Shown here: one piece after another, positions 2,127-11,386 of the stretch
Layout: every line of letters starts with the position of its first letter
Position numbering within the stretch: the first letter of the stretch is position 1
DNA from: SAR324 cluster bacterium
Lineage (GTDB): Bacteria; SAR324; JACQKK01
Direction: 5' to 3'
Assembly: GCA_027297205.1 (NCBI GenBank)
Contig: JAPUIH010000028.1
Location: 1-32,112, forward strand
Length of the DNA: 32,112 nt
Position numbers and translations under genes: made by a program
Notes under the pieces: generated by a model
Seen by the model: only the letters and a program-made list of their open reading frames with translations
Database searches by the model: none
Told to the model about the DNA's origin: nothing

Positions 2127-2975
2127 TCATCGGCCCTTCTTCAGCCCCTCGTTGAGAGAGCCGGAGCGGAAGCCCTTCAGGTCCACGGTGACATAGCGGT
2201 AGCCCAACGCTTCCAGTTCACGCACGATCTGCTCGCGCTGTGGCAACAGCCGCTCAATATCCTCAACGGGCACTTCGATCCGCGCCACATCGCCGTGATG
2301 ACGAACCCGCAATTGCGCGAATCCCATCCGCTTCAGGACCTGTTCCGCCTGTTCAATTTGGGAGAGCATGGGCAATGTAATCGCCAATCCATAGGGGACG
2401 CGGCTGGACAGGCAGGCGGCCTGAGGCTTGCGCGCATTGCGCAGCCCCAAGTGCGCCGCCAGCCGTCGGATATCCGTTTTTTGGAAATAGTACTCCGCCA
2501 GGGGCGAGCGCACCTTGTATTCCGCTGCGGCCTGCAGGCCCGGACGGTGGTCGCCCAGATCGTCCAGGTTGGTGCCATTGATGATGACCGCAAAGCCCTC
2601 CTGGCCGGCCAAGGCCGCCAGGTCGGCATACAGCGTCGATTTGCAAAAATAGCAGCGGTTGACCGGGTTGGCCAGATAGGAGGGGTTGCTTGTCTCGGCG
2701 GTGCGGATTACGCGATGCGCCATGCCCCAGTCCGCCGCCAGGCTCTCGGTGAGCGCATAGTCATCCCGGGTCAGGCTCTCCGAACAGGAAGTCACGGCCA
2801 GCGCACTTTTACCCAGAACGCTGTGCGAAAGATACGCCACCAGCGAGCTGTCCACACCACCGGAAAAGGCGGTGATGACACTGCCCATGGCCTTAATTGC
2901 TTCCTGGAGCGCCAGGTACTTGCGTTCCAATTCGGAGTCCAGGGGGACGGTCTGTGTTTGCTGCAAGGCTTCCAC
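2127..2975 (-). CDS. larE: LarE-like ATP-dependent sacrificial sulfur transferase (start codon uncertain; ORF extends to 3149)
   Basis: PP-loop SGGVDSSLVAY, RCYFCKSTLY, NGTNLDDLGDHRPGLQAAAE, KPQAACLSSRVPYG. GTG at 2975 precedes EALQQTQTVPLDSELERKYLALQ. Confidence 0.87.
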   Translation of the reverse strand: MEALQQTQTVPLDSELERKYLALQEAIKAMGSVITAFSGGVDSSLVAYLSHSVLGKSALAVTSCSESLTRDDYALTESLAADWGMAHRVIRTAETSNPSYLANPVNRCYFCKSTLYADLAALAGQEGFAVIINGTNLDDLGDHRPGLQAAAEYKVRSPLAEYYFQKTDIRRLAAHLGLRNARKPQAACLSSRVPYGLAITLPMLSQIEQAEQVLKRMGFAQLRVRHHGDVARIEVPVEDIERLLPQREQIVRELEALGYRYVTVDLKGFRSGSLNEGLKKGR

Positions 2976-3108
2976 GGGGCTCGGCGATAGGAAGATTTGA
3001 ATGCGATCGGGCAGGCAGTTGCCTGACCACCGTTTATACGGGCGCCGTGGTTGCGGTGTCAATCGCGGACGTGCAATTCCGGAGGCTACAGGCCGCGGGC
3101 AGGGAGGC

Positions 3109-3795
3109 TCAGGAATCAGGCTCGGCCGCGGGCTCTGTCTCGGATTCAATCTCGTCGAGTTTTATTTGAGCATCCGCCGCTGACACTTCCCCACTTTCCA
3201 CACCTTGCTGAATATCCTTCAATTCCTCGCCCCGCACTTCCGCCGCCATTTCGCCATCGGCCACGGTCTCCTTTGTGGCCATAAAATCCGCCTCGTCTTT
3301 GAGATCGGAATTTTTCTTGAGAAACGAGGATTTAATTTCAAGATAATTCTTGAACAGTCTCGTGTCTCGCAGGGTCTGCACCAAATTTTTGAAGGTCACC
3401 ACCGCTTGTTGGTCGCTCGTGTCAACCGTATTCTTGGTCAATTTATCGATGGAACTCTTCAGCTCTTTGCCACCCTCGAATTCTTCCACCTTCAGGAAGG
3501 CATCAATCAGGCTTCCCGTATTGTGCAAGCGGCGATTGGTGCGTTCCACGAACTGGGGTGGCGTCAGCGCGTGCTGTGTCGATTTGGCGAAATGGCGGAT
3601 ATCCGCATTGTTAAATTTAAAAGCCCCCGACTGCTCCAGTTGCCGAAACTGCACCGCCTTGATTCCTGGAGGCATTTTTTCGATTACCTCGAGCTTCTCG
3701 TTGAGTTCCTTGAAATGCTCGATCAAATCGTCGTTATCCGCAGTCAGCAACTCCAGCGTGGCCCTTACCGCCGCGATTTCGTCAACATTTTCCAT
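3109..3795 (-). CDS. Hypothetical protein, charged/helical, no recognised domain
   Basis: Intact 228-aa ORF on the strand of larE, start MENVDEIAAVRATLELL; acidic C-terminus; no motif recognised. Confidence 0.6.
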   Translation of the reverse strand: MENVDEIAAVRATLELLTADNDDLIEHFKELNEKLEVIEKMPPGIKAVQFRQLEQSGAFKFNNADIRHFAKSTQHALTPPQFVERTNRRLHNTGSLIDAFLKVEEFEGGKELKSSIDKLTKNTVDTSDQQAVVTFKNLVQTLRDTRLFKNYLEIKSSFLKKNSDLKDEADFMATKETVADGEMAAEVRGEELKDIQQGVESGEVSAADAQIKLDEIESETEPAAEPDS

Positions 3796-6841: not shown

Positions 6842-7387
6842 CTACTGTTTTTCCTGAATTTGCTTGACGAACATTTCGCGGGAAAGCACGTAGACCAGAT
6901 ATCCGTTGACACGCGGGGAGAACTTTGCGCGCACCAGGTATTTGTATTCCATGAAGTTGGAATCCGTTTCTTCCAACACGCATTCCACCACGATCACATC
7001 CAGGGCCACCATGCTCAGGGCGCTCATTAGCACGTTGGTGCCCGGTTCGAAATAAGTGTCGGAGTGAAATGCCAGCCCGCTCACGGAAATGTCGAGAATG
7101 GGGAATGCCTGCGGGCCGATATGGGCATAGATATTAACGTCCTTATCGTGGTCGAAGCGGTAACGGGGCTCGGTGCGCCGTTCGTCAATACCAGGCGGGG
7201 CCTGGGCCGCCTTCAACGCTTCCATTTCTCCAAGCACGTCCTCGTCTGGATTGATGCTTTGCAGTTCGGATTTAAGTGAGTCGTACTCCTCTTTCCAGCG
7301 TCCTCTTTCTTGTTCTTCATTCCAGACTTTACCTTCTCCATCGCTGGAAAAGTTGTCCTCTTTATTGTGATCGCCCATCGGGTTCAT
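6842..7387 (-). CDS. PilZ-domain protein with N-terminal helical segment
   Basis: IDERRTEPRYRFDHDKDVNIYA...PILDISVSGLAFHSD resembles the PilZ RxxxR ... DxSxxG signature. Confidence 0.75.
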   Translation of the reverse strand: MNPMGDHNKEDNFSSDGEGKVWNEEQERGRWKEEYDSLKSELQSINPDEDVLGEMEALKAAQAPPGIDERRTEPRYRFDHDKDVNIYAHIGPQAFPILDISVSGLAFHSDTYFEPGTNVLMSALSMVALDVIVVECVLEETDSNFMEYKYLVRAKFSPRVNGYLVYVLSREMFVKQIQEKQ

Positions 7388-7554
7388 TCTCCCTGATTCC
7401 CCATAAATAGGTAACCGGTGCGGTAATGCTGGAATGCAGACTTCCTGCACCAATAGCACTAACGGGAGCATATTTCCACTCCGCCACTATTCGGCGGGGA
7501 GGCGTTAACGTCCTAATGCGCGCTTTGCAGGGGCCGGTGGCGCACCATTTGCTC

Positions 7555-8508
7555 TCACAATTTCAGTTCGGCCAGCAGGTTTCTCCAGCCTGCAATTTCC
7601 CGGGATGGCTGGAACATGGGGGCCAGCCTAGCCATGTGCCGCTGCAGCGCTCTCAAGAAGGCAGCATCGTCTTCGGCGCGCGTCAGCAGTTCCCGCAGTT
7701 CTCCCGTGTCACCCACCCTGAAATAACCAGGATAGCTGTCACCCAGCAGGCCCACCGTGCCTGGAATTTTCGAGGCCAGGACGGGCAATCCCGCGGCGCC
7801 CGCCTCCGAGATCACATTCGCGCCACCTTCCATGCGGGAAGACAGCACCATCAACCTGCATGCGGCCAGCAGCCTCCGTACCCGCCAACGGGGCAATTCC
7901 CCCAGCCAGCTGTAACGGGAATTCGTCTGCGCTTCCCGTTTGGCCTTGCGTTCCATCTGCGGATTTAGGGCTTTCCCTGCGTGCAGCACGCGGATGCGTG
8001 AAGAGGCGGGCAATCCCCGCACGGCCATTGCGGCCCGGAACGGGTCTTTCTCCTCGCGCAAATGGCCGACCACACACACTGGAAAGCCCGTGTGCGGGGG
8101 CTTGACCCCTGCTGGAGGGGCCTGGGCAGATTGCACAATCACGCGCAGTTTACCCCGCACCGCGCGGGGCAACTCGCGGCTGGCCAAGGGCTGCAGGGCA
8201 ACCAACCGGGTGGCCATCCGCAACGACGCCCGGGCCTCCTCGCTGTTTTGCATGTCCCTGTACAGATCGGTGCCTGTCAAGGCCAGCACCAGCGGCGCCC
8301 TGGGATAGTGATCCCGGTAGGCGCGCAAGGCGGCATGACTGCGCCGGGCGTGGAGGGCGATCATCAGATCGCAGCGCTGGGCGTCATAGGTCTGGGCCAG
8401 GGTCACACGATGGCCCAGACCCTCCAGGATGCCGCGCCAGCGGAGGGCCGTAACCCGGTTGCCATGACGGGTGCGGGGCGGGGCGGGCGTAATCATGATG
8501 ATTTTCAT
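7555..8508 (-). CDS. senB: TIGR04348-like glycosyltransferase; candidate selenosugar synthase SenB
   Basis: MKIIMITPAPPRTRHGNRVTALRWRGILEGLGHRV...YDAQRCDLMIALHARRSHAALRAYRDHYP...LALTGTDLYRD...SSRMEGGANVISEAGAAGLPVLASKIPG; immediately downstream of an EgtB/SenA-like gene. Confidence 0.83.
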   Translation of the reverse strand: MKIIMITPAPPRTRHGNRVTALRWRGILEGLGHRVTLAQTYDAQRCDLMIALHARRSHAALRAYRDHYPRAPLVLALTGTDLYRDMQNSEEARASLRMATRLVALQPLASRELPRAVRGKLRVIVQSAQAPPAGVKPPHTGFPVCVVGHLREEKDPFRAAMAVRGLPASSRIRVLHAGKALNPQMERKAKREAQTNSRYSWLGELPRWRVRRLLAACRLMVLSSRMEGGANVISEAGAAGLPVLASKIPGTVGLLGDSYPGYFRVGDTGELRELLTRAEDDAAFLRALQRHMARLAPMFQPSREIAGWRNLLAELKL

Positions 8509-8590: not shown

Positions 8591-9916
8591 CTACTGGGAG
8601 CAGGTGCGGAATCCGGCGAACACGTCGCTCCGATCCGGCATGAAGAAATTGCGCCAGGTGTTGCGTATCATGCGGGAGCGGGTGGCCCAGCTGCCGCCTC
8701 GCAGCACTTTGTGATACCCAAACCAGGGTGCGGAATACTCCCGGTAGGGATCGACCACAAAGCCGGGATAGGGATAGAAGGCGTCGGCGGTCCATTCCCA
8801 CACATTACCCAGCATTTGCCGGCAGCCATGGGCGCTATCTCCATCCGGCAAGGCCGCTACGTCCGCCGGTGCGGTGGAATGACAATCCAGGTTGGCGTGT
8901 TGGGGTGTGGGCGCCGCATCACCCCAGGGATAGCGGCGCTTTTCGCCAAGCAGGGAGCCGTTGGCGGCGGGCACCGTGGCCGCGGCCAGCTCCCACTCGG
9001 CCTCTGTGGGCAGTCTGCGTCCGGCCCAATTGCAATAGGCCTCCGCTTCAAACCAGTTGACGTGCAGCGCCGGCTGATGCTCCCGTATCGGCTCCCAGCG
9101 GTCGAAGCGGCGGCAGCGCCAGCCGCCCCCCCTGCCGGGACGCCAGTAAACTGGGTGCTTCGCGCGGGAATTGCCCAGCCAGAGCCGGCCCCGGATGCTC
9201 CAGAATTGTTCGCTGCGGTAACCCCCCGCTTCCACGAACTGAGCAAATTCGCCATTGGTGACAGCTGCGCGGGCGATGTGGAACGGCGCTACGTCCACGG
9301 GATGCGCCCATTTCTCGTTGTCGAAAACGTAGGGCATGTCCTGGCTGCCGCCCAGCATATAGCCTTGCGCGCCGGGCACCTCCACATCGCCCGGCAAGGG
9401 CCCCGCCGGTTCCGCTTCCGGCGGCGGTTCCACAGCCCTGGCCTGCAAGGTTGGAGCGGAATAGCGCTGGGTCTGGCGGTCATGGATCATGGCCTCGTCG
9501 TGCATGTCCTCATGAAACACAGACAGCCTGTTGTAGTAAGTGGCCTCCTCACCAAGTGCCGTGTCGCGCACGGTCTCCAACACGTTCTCCAATACCTCCG
9601 CCGCATAAGCGAGCGTACTTTCCCGCCCGGGCATGGCAAGGTCCCAGCGGATTTCGTGGGCCACTTCAAAGGAATCGTAGAGTGCGTCCACCTCCGGCCG
9701 CAAGGTGGGACGTCCGTTCAGGTGGCGCAGCACCCATCTTTCCTGGAACCAGGCGATATGGCCTACGTGCCAGATCATGGGATTTACCGTGGCCACTATT
9801 TTCCCAAGCAACTGTTCATCGGTCAGGTCTTCCACCAAATGGAAAGTGAAGTCCCGAGCGTCGCGCACCCAACGCGTCAGTTCCTCTTCCGCCGCGGCTT
9901 TGCAGGCCAAATCCAT
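8591..9916 (-). CDS. senA: EgtB-like DinB + formylglycine-generating-enzyme domain protein; candidate selenoneine synthase SenA
   Basis: DinB part NPMIWHVGHIAWFQERW and FHEDMHDEAM (HxxxH metal motif); FGE part LPTEAEWELAAAT...MLGNVWEWTADAFYPYPGF...KVLRGGSWATRSRMIRNTWRNFFMPDRSDVFAGFRTC. Start MDLACKAAAEEEL at 9916 preferred; the ORF extends to 9994. Confidence 0.83.
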   Translation of the reverse strand: MDLACKAAAEEELTRWVRDARDFTFHLVEDLTDEQLLGKIVATVNPMIWHVGHIAWFQERWVLRHLNGRPTLRPEVDALYDSFEVAHEIRWDLAMPGRESTLAYAAEVLENVLETVRDTALGEEATYYNRLSVFHEDMHDEAMIHDRQTQRYSAPTLQARAVEPPPEAEPAGPLPGDVEVPGAQGYMLGGSQDMPYVFDNEKWAHPVDVAPFHIARAAVTNGEFAQFVEAGGYRSEQFWSIRGRLWLGNSRAKHPVYWRPGRGGGWRCRRFDRWEPIREHQPALHVNWFEAEAYCNWAGRRLPTEAEWELAAATVPAANGSLLGEKRRYPWGDAAPTPQHANLDCHSTAPADVAALPDGDSAHGCRQMLGNVWEWTADAFYPYPGFVVDPYREYSAPWFGYHKVLRGGSWATRSRMIRNTWRNFFMPDRSDVFAGFRTCSQ

Positions 9917-10009: not shown

Positions 10010-11386
10010 TTACAAAGGTTTCAGATCACCCAGCAAAGTTGGCAGGAGTTCCGAAACCGTGGGATGGATGTGTACCGCGCGGGTCACCGTCGTATAGGGC
10101 GCCTTGGCATACATCAGATCCAGCAGGGAGTGGGCTATCTCGTCGCCCCCGATACCCAGCAAGGCCGCACCCAGTATCTCCTTACTCTCCGCATCCACCA
10201 CCACTTTCATAAAGCCCTGGGTTTCGCCGCGTTCCCGGGCACGGGCCACTCGCTCCATCTGCATTGTCCCCACCAGGGCCTTGCGTCCCGATTCCCGCAC
10301 CTGCTGCTCCGTCATGCCGGCCCGCCCCAGCGGGGGGTCGATAAAAAGACCGTAGCAGATGATGCGGTCCGCCACGCTGCGCGGGTCGTTGTCGAACAGA
10401 TTGGCCGCCACGATCTCATAATCGTTGTAGGAAGTATGGGTAAAAGCGCCCAGGCCATTGCAATCTCCGATGGCCCAGATGCCTTCTACGTTGGTGCGCA
10501 ACTGGTTGTCCACCGTGATCATTCCCTGGGGATTGGTGGCCACCCCGGCCTTGTCGAGGCCGAGGTCATCGGTATTGGGGCGGCGTCCTACGGCAACCAG
10601 CAGATGGGAGCCGGCAAGGTCTTCCTCGCCGCCCGCGCCATTCAGTTTGACCGAAATGCCGCCGCTCTGCTGCCCGGCTTCCGCCAGGGTGGTGTCAAGC
10701 CGGATGTCGATGCCCTCATTTTCCAGTATTTTCTTGATGGCATCGGAGATATCTTCATCTTCCCGTGGGATCAGGCGGGGTCCTTGTTCCACCACCGTTA
10801 CCTTGCTCCCGAAGCGCCGGTATATCTGGGAGAATTCCAGGCCGATATAGCTGCCGCCGAGCACAATCAGGTGCTCGGGCACCGCTTCCAATTCCAGCAT
10901 GCTGGAGTTGGTGAGGTACTTGATACTGTCCAGACCTGGCACCGGCGGCACCATGGCCCGCGCACCCACGTTAATGAAAATCTTATCAGCTTCGAGCACC
11001 TCTCCGTTCACACTTACCGTATTTGGGCTTTCCAGGCGGCCATGGCCCTGGAAAATCGTACCGTTGTCCAGATTCTTCATCCAGTTGGTGACGCCGGTGT
11101 TGGAACGCTCCACAATTTCGTCTTTGCGGGCCTTGACCCGCTTCATGTCCACCCGGATCGGCGAGTCGATCATGACGCCGAATTCCGCGCCTCGGTTGGC
11201 CATGTATGCTGCCCTGGCGCTAGCCACCAAGGTTTTTGTGGGAATTCAACCTGTATTGACACAGGTGCCGCCGAATTTATCTCTCTCGATGACAGCCACC
11301 TGCATGCCCTCCTGGCTCAGGCGGGATGCCAGAGAGGGGCCCGACTGGCCGGTGCCGATTACGATTGCGTCGAACTTGGTTGTCAT
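10010..11386 (-). CDS. Selenocysteine-containing FAD/NAD(P)-dependent pyridine nucleotide-disulfide oxidoreductase (mercuric reductase/dihydrolipoamide dehydrogenase superfamily); UGA at 11248-11246 read as Sec
   Basis: MTTKFDAIVIGTGQSGPSLASRLSQEGMQVAVIERDKFGGTCVNTG[TGA]IPTKTLVASARAAYMANRG... continues in the same frame to HIHPTVSELLPTLLGDLKPL. FAD GxGxxG motif, NAD motif VLGGSYIGLEFSQIYRRFGSKVTVVE, C-terminal HxxxxxE present. AAAGGAG ribosome-binding site before ATG 11386. ORF track shows only the part after the UGA. Confidence 0.86.
11212..11232 (-). promoter_or_regulatory. Candidate bacterial SECIS hairpin
   Basis: 5'-CCUUGGUG GCUAG CGCCAGGG-3': 8 contiguous pairs (two G.U), 5-nt apical loop starting with G, loop G 22 nt after the in-frame UGA. 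Confidence 0.72.

Follow-up and report, generated by a model that had tools for sequence, protein, structure and literature searches.

The flavoenzyme gene and its neighbours

The window, a stretch of 32,112 nucleotides of SAR324 cluster bacterium DNA, carries on its minus strand a flavoenzyme gene, hereafter FADox, followed by the genes senA and senB. The features referred to below are listed here.

10010..11386, minus strand: FADox, class-I FAD-containing pyridine nucleotide-disulfide oxidoreductase, 458 aa, assigned from the translation with TGA read as U, profile matches, and a Shine-Dalgarno-like site; start ATG 11386, stop TAA 10012-10010, a single in-frame UGA
11397-11391, minus strand: Shine-Dalgarno-like sequence AAAGGAG, 4 nt ahead of ATG 11386
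11261..11263, minus strand: codon 42 of FADox (TGT), first redox Cys, which lies in the GGTCVN motif and is the predicted interchange thiol paired with residue 47
11248-11246, minus strand: in-frame UGA, codon 47 of FADox, very probably read as selenocysteine (Sec), at the place in the alignment where RclA and other class-I enzymes have their second active-site Cys
11212..11232, minus strand: hairpin, candidate SECIS, unproven; 5' arm 11232-11225, loop 11224-11220 (GCUAG), 3' arm 11219-11212
8591..9916, minus strand: senA, selenoneine synthase, 441 aa, NF041186 484.8 bits (cut-off 420), 93 nt downstream of FADox
7555..8508, minus strand: senB, selenosugar synthase, 317 aa, TIGR04348 401.9 bits (cut-off 300), directly downstream of senA

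In profile searches performed with C in place of U, the FADox product matched NF004992 (PRK06370 type) over its full length with 767.4 bits, against a cut-off of 629, and both the PF07992 and the PF02852 domains were found in it. The models for dihydrolipoyl dehydrogenase, RclA, and MerA gave similar scores, each below its cut-off, and the best solved relative was RclA (6kgy), the second active-site Cys of which is aligned with U47. The fold of the predicted product is settled by its sequence. In class-I enzymes, the interchange thiol lies at the position of Cys42, and the charge-transfer residue that faces the flavin lies at the position of residue 47. FADox shares its domains with the PRK06370 family, which belongs to class I together with RclA, dihydrolipoyl dehydrogenase, glutathione reductase, and MerA, and keeps the first redox Cys, whereas its second redox Cys codon is replaced by UGA, and the CxxxxC pair of the family thus reads CxxxxU (C42-VNTG-U47 in the translation with TGA as U). 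This CxxxxU centre would be functionally equivalent to CxxxxC if Sec is inserted.

The composition of a selenoneine cluster was found in the window genome, with SenA and SenB over their cut-offs and encoded by adjacent genes, and with SenC (SelD) encoded on another contig, C365. As in the Variovorax SenA-SenB-SenC(SelD) selenoneine pathway (PMC10891094), senA and senB of the window lie side by side on one strand; the window differs from this pathway in that the UGA-containing FADox gene precedes senA-senB and that selD lies on C365. The window also carries a gene of a LarE-type sulfur transferase at 2130-3149 (TIGR00268, 309 bits, cut-off 150).

The in-frame UGA at codon 47

Orthologs of FADox were collected by the GGTCVN motif, with 1330 genomes searched in all in addition to one pattern scan, and at least four UGA orthologs were obtained. 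Most genomes in this sample are draft assemblies of uncultured bacteria. Among 116 orthologs, in-frame stops were found in four, which are the window gene, L030, L095, and L172; each of these stops is a TGA at codon 47, no other in-frame stop occurs in any of the 116, and codon 47 encodes Cys in the other 112. L030 comes from the SAR324 MAG B11T3L8, a member of the same bacterial family as the window genome, and homologs of ParA, NusB, LigA, and TrkA adjoin the gene in an order common to the two genomes. L095 comes from an Acidobacteria MAG, and L172 turned up among genomes from the phylum to which a Planctomycetota MAG belongs. In the tree of the orthologs, the UGA forms occupy three places, one held by the window gene together with L030 and the others by L095 and L172, and well-supported branches force at least three changes between the Cys and UGA labels. 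These changes could be gains of UGA, or gains plus losses.

The machinery for Sec insertion accompanies the gene. All four genomes with a UGA form of FADox encode SelA above the curated cut-off. The window genome further encodes SelB (360 bits, cut-off 242), a tRNA-Sec (61 bits, cut-off 47) with the anticodon TCA according to ARAGORN, and, outside the window, a selD gene that has an in-frame TGA of its own. In addition, the comparison of the window gene with L030 downstream of codon 47 gave a dN of 0.234 and a dS of 0.977, and by this measure purifying selection acts on the sequence 3' of the UGA.

The position of the UGA at a catalytic codon, its recurrence, the presence of the Sec machinery, and the coding constraint together strongly suggest that Sec is inserted at codon 47 of FADox in vivo. 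The earlier note had likewise taken this UGA for a Sec codon, and we regard that assignment as very probable on these four grounds and not on the hairpin discussed below. The UGA at 11248-11246 would then be decoded by SelB and tRNA-Sec.

A mutated or misread Cys codon, that is, a pseudogene or a sequencing error, would take one base change from TGC or TGT to TGA, and the assembly of the window genome is fragmented (400 contigs, 91% complete). However, the change recurs in four genomes at three places of the tree and never appears as another stop at another codon, dN/dS downstream of it is well below 1, and SelA is encoded in every one of the four genomes; this explanation is very improbable. 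Even less credible is a true stop followed by a restart at TTG 11230, from which an open reading frame of 406 aa does extend to the FADox stop, since its product would have neither the FAD-binding N-terminus nor either of the two active-site residues, the Shine-Dalgarno-like sequence precedes ATG 11386 instead, and residues 1-46 are conserved with the Cys orthologs.

A general reassignment of UGA in the window genome was also considered and was rejected, because senB in the window terminates with UGA.

The hairpin 3' of the UGA

Nucleotides 14-34 past the UGA (11232-11212, minus strand) read CCUUGGUG GCUAG CGCCAGGG and form a stem of eight standard pairs, two of them G.U, with the first loop G at nucleotide 22 and a spacing of 21 nt between the UGA and the loop. 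On re-reading and refolding, the hairpin described in the earlier note proved exact in its position, pairs, and loop. Its further claim, that the hairpin matches the rules for bacterial SECIS elements, is borne out by the published bSECIS limits, which are a loop of 3-9 nt, a G at loop position 1 or 2, a spacing of 16-37 nt, and a minimum free energy of -7.5 kcal/mol or lower (PMC13188914). The loop of 5 nt has its G first, the 8 bp lie within the 4-16 bp of the upper stem, and the spacing of 21 nt and the energy of -12.9 kcal/mol are also within the limits. The hairpin thus resembles bacterial SECIS elements (bSECIS model; E. coli formate dehydrogenase type) as a structure inside the coding region just 3' of the UGA. 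The usual, but not obligatory, loop pattern of G followed by G or U is different, since the window loop begins with GC; opening the upper two pairs would give an alternative loop, UGGCUAGCG, that fits this pattern.

The outcome of folding depended on the length of the sequence folded from the UGA. With 37-55 nt, the hairpin has the lowest energy of all structures (-12.3 to -12.9 kcal/mol), and its pair probabilities are at least 0.94. When at least 60 nt are folded, a different fold wins, with -19.1 kcal/mol at 60-64 nt and -25.1 kcal/mol at 75 nt, and the probability of the hairpin falls to 0-0.2. The earlier note had named a different, much more stable fold as an outcome that would count against its reading, and folding of 60 nt or more does yield a more stable alternative; together with the ortholog comparison below, most of the outcomes that it had named in this sense were observed. 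No unusual stability was seen in folding the 64 nt after the UGA (z = -0.43). A scan of the whole window gave no Rfam family, and ARAGORN gave no tRNA in the whole window.

We then scored the best hairpin that fits the bSECIS rules in 109 Cys (TGC or TGT) orthologs and three, later four, UGA orthologs from public genomes. A rule-fitting hairpin at -7.5 kcal/mol or lower was present in 74 of the 109 Cys orthologs, and in 34 it reached -12.9 kcal/mol or lower. The hairpins of the UGA genes were not significantly better than those of the Cys genes (one-sided p = 0.063, n = 4 versus 109), and a strict model with a GG or GU loop did not separate the two groups either (p = 0.108, n = 4 versus 109). 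As for the stem itself, all eight pairs form in the TGC ortholog L066 (CCCUGGUG GCGAG UGCCAGGG) and at least seven of the eight form in 11/109 Cys orthologs, whereas the stem is broken in the UGA orthologs L030 (4/8 pairs) and L095 (5/8 pairs). In both respects the window stem differs from a bacterial SECIS, and the comparison of stems between UGA and Cys orthologs that the earlier note had put forward as a check came out against its use as independent evidence.

The same pattern emerged when the peptide was recoded synonymously according to local codon usage: 65% of the recodings yield a hairpin within the SECIS rules at -7.5 kcal/mol or lower, and 32% yield one at -12.9 kcal/mol or lower. 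The conserved peptide TLVASAR, when written in GC-rich codons (CTG GTG GCC AGC GCC), yields such hairpins unaided. This peptide in GC-rich codons thus accounts for most of the hairpin. Given its presence in Cys orthologs, its disruption in UGA orthologs, and its frequency among recodings, it is not independent evidence for Sec, although the earlier note had counted it as evidence independent of the protein alignment. Even a well-formed SECIS-like hairpin that follows a conserved, GC-rich motif may be shared by most Cys orthologs, and it is then no independent line of evidence.

Whether the hairpin at 11232-11212 serves as the SECIS is a separate matter, on which we see the chances as evenly divided. 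A structure just 3' of the UGA would recruit SelB, and this hairpin is the candidate; if it acts in this way, the SECIS itself would be an ordinary one. Nearly as plausible is that the hairpin is a by-product of the codon usage for TLVASAR and that Sec is inserted with the help of some other structure after the UGA, or of an element specific to the lineage, to which SelB is drawn. In addition to the hairpins of the Cys orthologs, the equally stable recodings, and the loss of the stem in L030 and L095, the hairpins after other UGA codons point in this direction: that of selD in the same genome has a GGUC loop (CAGCCC-GGUC-GGGCUG), that of L095 reads GGCGCU-GGUCGCG-AGCGCC, and both have a spacing of 17. 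Conversely, the perfect eight pairs in the exact register of the window occur in only 1.8% of the recodings (a register picked after the fact), no other fold of the first 37-55 nt has a lower energy than the hairpin, and bacterial SECIS elements diverge widely (PMC13188914).

Proposed function and known selenoproteins

As a whole, we consider it probable that FADox is a Sec-decoded class-I FAD- and NAD(P)H-dependent disulfide reductase with a Cys42-x4-Sec47 centre, for which an oxidised substrate of the selenoneine/ergothioneine type is the most likely one. In the proposed mechanism, Sec47 would occupy the flavin-facing charge-transfer position and Cys42 would be the interchange thiol; NAD(P)H would donate electrons to FAD, which would hand them to the Cys42-Sec47 selenenylsulfide, and the final acceptor would be selenoneine diselenide or a mixed form. 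By the operon context, the most likely substrate would be an oxidised low-molecular-weight selenol or thiol of the selenoneine/ergothioneine type, and genome co-occurrence suggests the same. The narrower assignment of FADox as a selenoneine/ergothioneine reductase is, on sequence and context, possible at somewhat less than an even chance.

The linkage seen in the window recurs elsewhere. In an Acidobacteriota genome (G443, L176:14427-18386), a Cys form of FADox lies directly after SenA and beside a divergent selD with its own TGA, with SenB about 10 kb away. A 9.2-kb contig of a Planctomycetota genome (G053) contains SenA-SenB, an EgtD, and FADox. A Sulfopaludibacter MAG (L062) has FADox, an EgtB/OvoA-like gene, and EgtD in a row. 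At the loci L079, L099, and L100, genes resembling EgtB and EgtD likewise lie close to FADox, and at L135 EgtB does so. Among 396 Acidobacteriota genomes, FADox is present in 36 and SenB in 30, with both in eight against about 2.7 expected (p = 0.003, kinship ignored), and SenB is present in five of the seven closest FADox carriers.

The linkage is not general. No sen or egt neighbours were found at most FADox loci within the flank examined, and no sen genes were found near FADox in the UGA forms L095 and L172. In L030, the interval from FADox to the next shared gene lacks senA-senB, and SenB is encoded elsewhere in that genome, suggesting that the pairing of FADox with the sen genes is recent or labile. 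Similar uncharacterised proteins without an NCBIfam match are encoded beyond senB in the window (6842-7471) and directly after FADox in L030 (7712-8134), which suggests either an insertion of senA-senB in one lineage or their loss from the other. In a contig with SenA-SenB, a fused substrate-binding/permease protein of the osmoprotectant-transporter type (L180:2769-4292, family matches below cut-off) lies between EgtD and FADox; its layout resembles that of an ergothioneine transporter.

It is an even question whether the Sec flavoenzyme instead acts on another substrate (lipoamide-, glutathione-, Hg(II)-, or reactive-chlorine-related, or an unknown disulfide), with its adjacency to senA-senB due to chance or shared regulation. 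The similar scores below cut-off against the dihydrolipoyl dehydrogenase, RclA, and MerA models, RclA as the best solved relative, and the position of the L030 gene outside any sen cluster are consistent with such a substrate, whereas the recurrence of senA/senB or egtB/egtD linkage in several phyla and the co-occurrence of FADox and senB in genomes argue for the selenoneine/ergothioneine type. No bacterial reductase of oxidised ergothioneine or selenoneine was found in the literature searched, which was mostly without subscription papers.

The animal high-molecular-weight thioredoxin reductase is an NADPH-dependent class-I flavoprotein with Sec in a C-terminal GCUG tail, and its flavin-proximal pair consists of Cys only. 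FADox has the same class-I fold with Sec, which in this case would lie inside the flavin-proximal pair. The class-I CxxxxU flavoenzyme is absent from a 2026 inventory that covers 119 families of prokaryotic selenoproteins (PMC13188914). The entries of this inventory include a CoA-disulfide-reductase type (UGxP), the UxxU protein NF041115, and a type III sulfide quinone reductase. The CoA-disulfide-reductase type (TIGR03385) is, like FADox, an FAD-dependent disulfide reductase with a predicted active-site Sec, but it forms a separate branch with UGxP (PMC13188914), whereas FADox has a class-I two-residue CxxxxU centre. NF041115, annotated as a putative mercuric reductase and in this respect related, differs in being metal-binding by its listing, with two Sec in UxxU and without a CxxxxC flavin centre. 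A CxxxxU flavoprotein selenoprotein was likewise not found in the literature searched, again mostly without subscription papers.

We tentatively propose that FADox represents a previously unlisted selenoprotein family in which a flavin-adjacent Sec may have been acquired several times from Cys, and which would recycle the low-molecular-weight selenol selenoneine, and ergothioneine in the Cys relatives. If confirmed, this would be a new selenoprotein family with Sec at an unusual, flavin-facing residue rather than at the substrate-attacking one, which raises the question of what a class-I disulfide reductase gains from selenium at that position. The repeated conversions between Cys and Sec would make natural Cys/Sec comparisons possible. 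By its operon position beside senA-senB, the enzyme may serve in the redox recycling of selenoneine and ergothioneine; in that case, both the enzyme and its substrate would contain selenium.

In-frame TGA codons were also observed in other senB genes. In a genome of the same family as the window genome, senB (L179, G005:C220) has an internal TGA (LPEDS-TGA-IRVLH) where the window SenB has Arg, and it may be an error, a pseudogene, or recoding. For two Acidobacteriota genomes, both of which encode SelA, the senB starts (L177 near 6263, minus strand, G070:C2; L178 near 1975, plus strand, G111:C570) have an in-frame TGA at codon 4 (MRI-TGA-IVTPAPPG), a position that is not Cys in other SenBs. The two SenBs are identical at 280/321 positions, and in both genes the codon-4 TGA is followed by a strong SECIS-like hairpin whose loop contains GGUUC (-23.1 and -17.0 kcal/mol, respectively).
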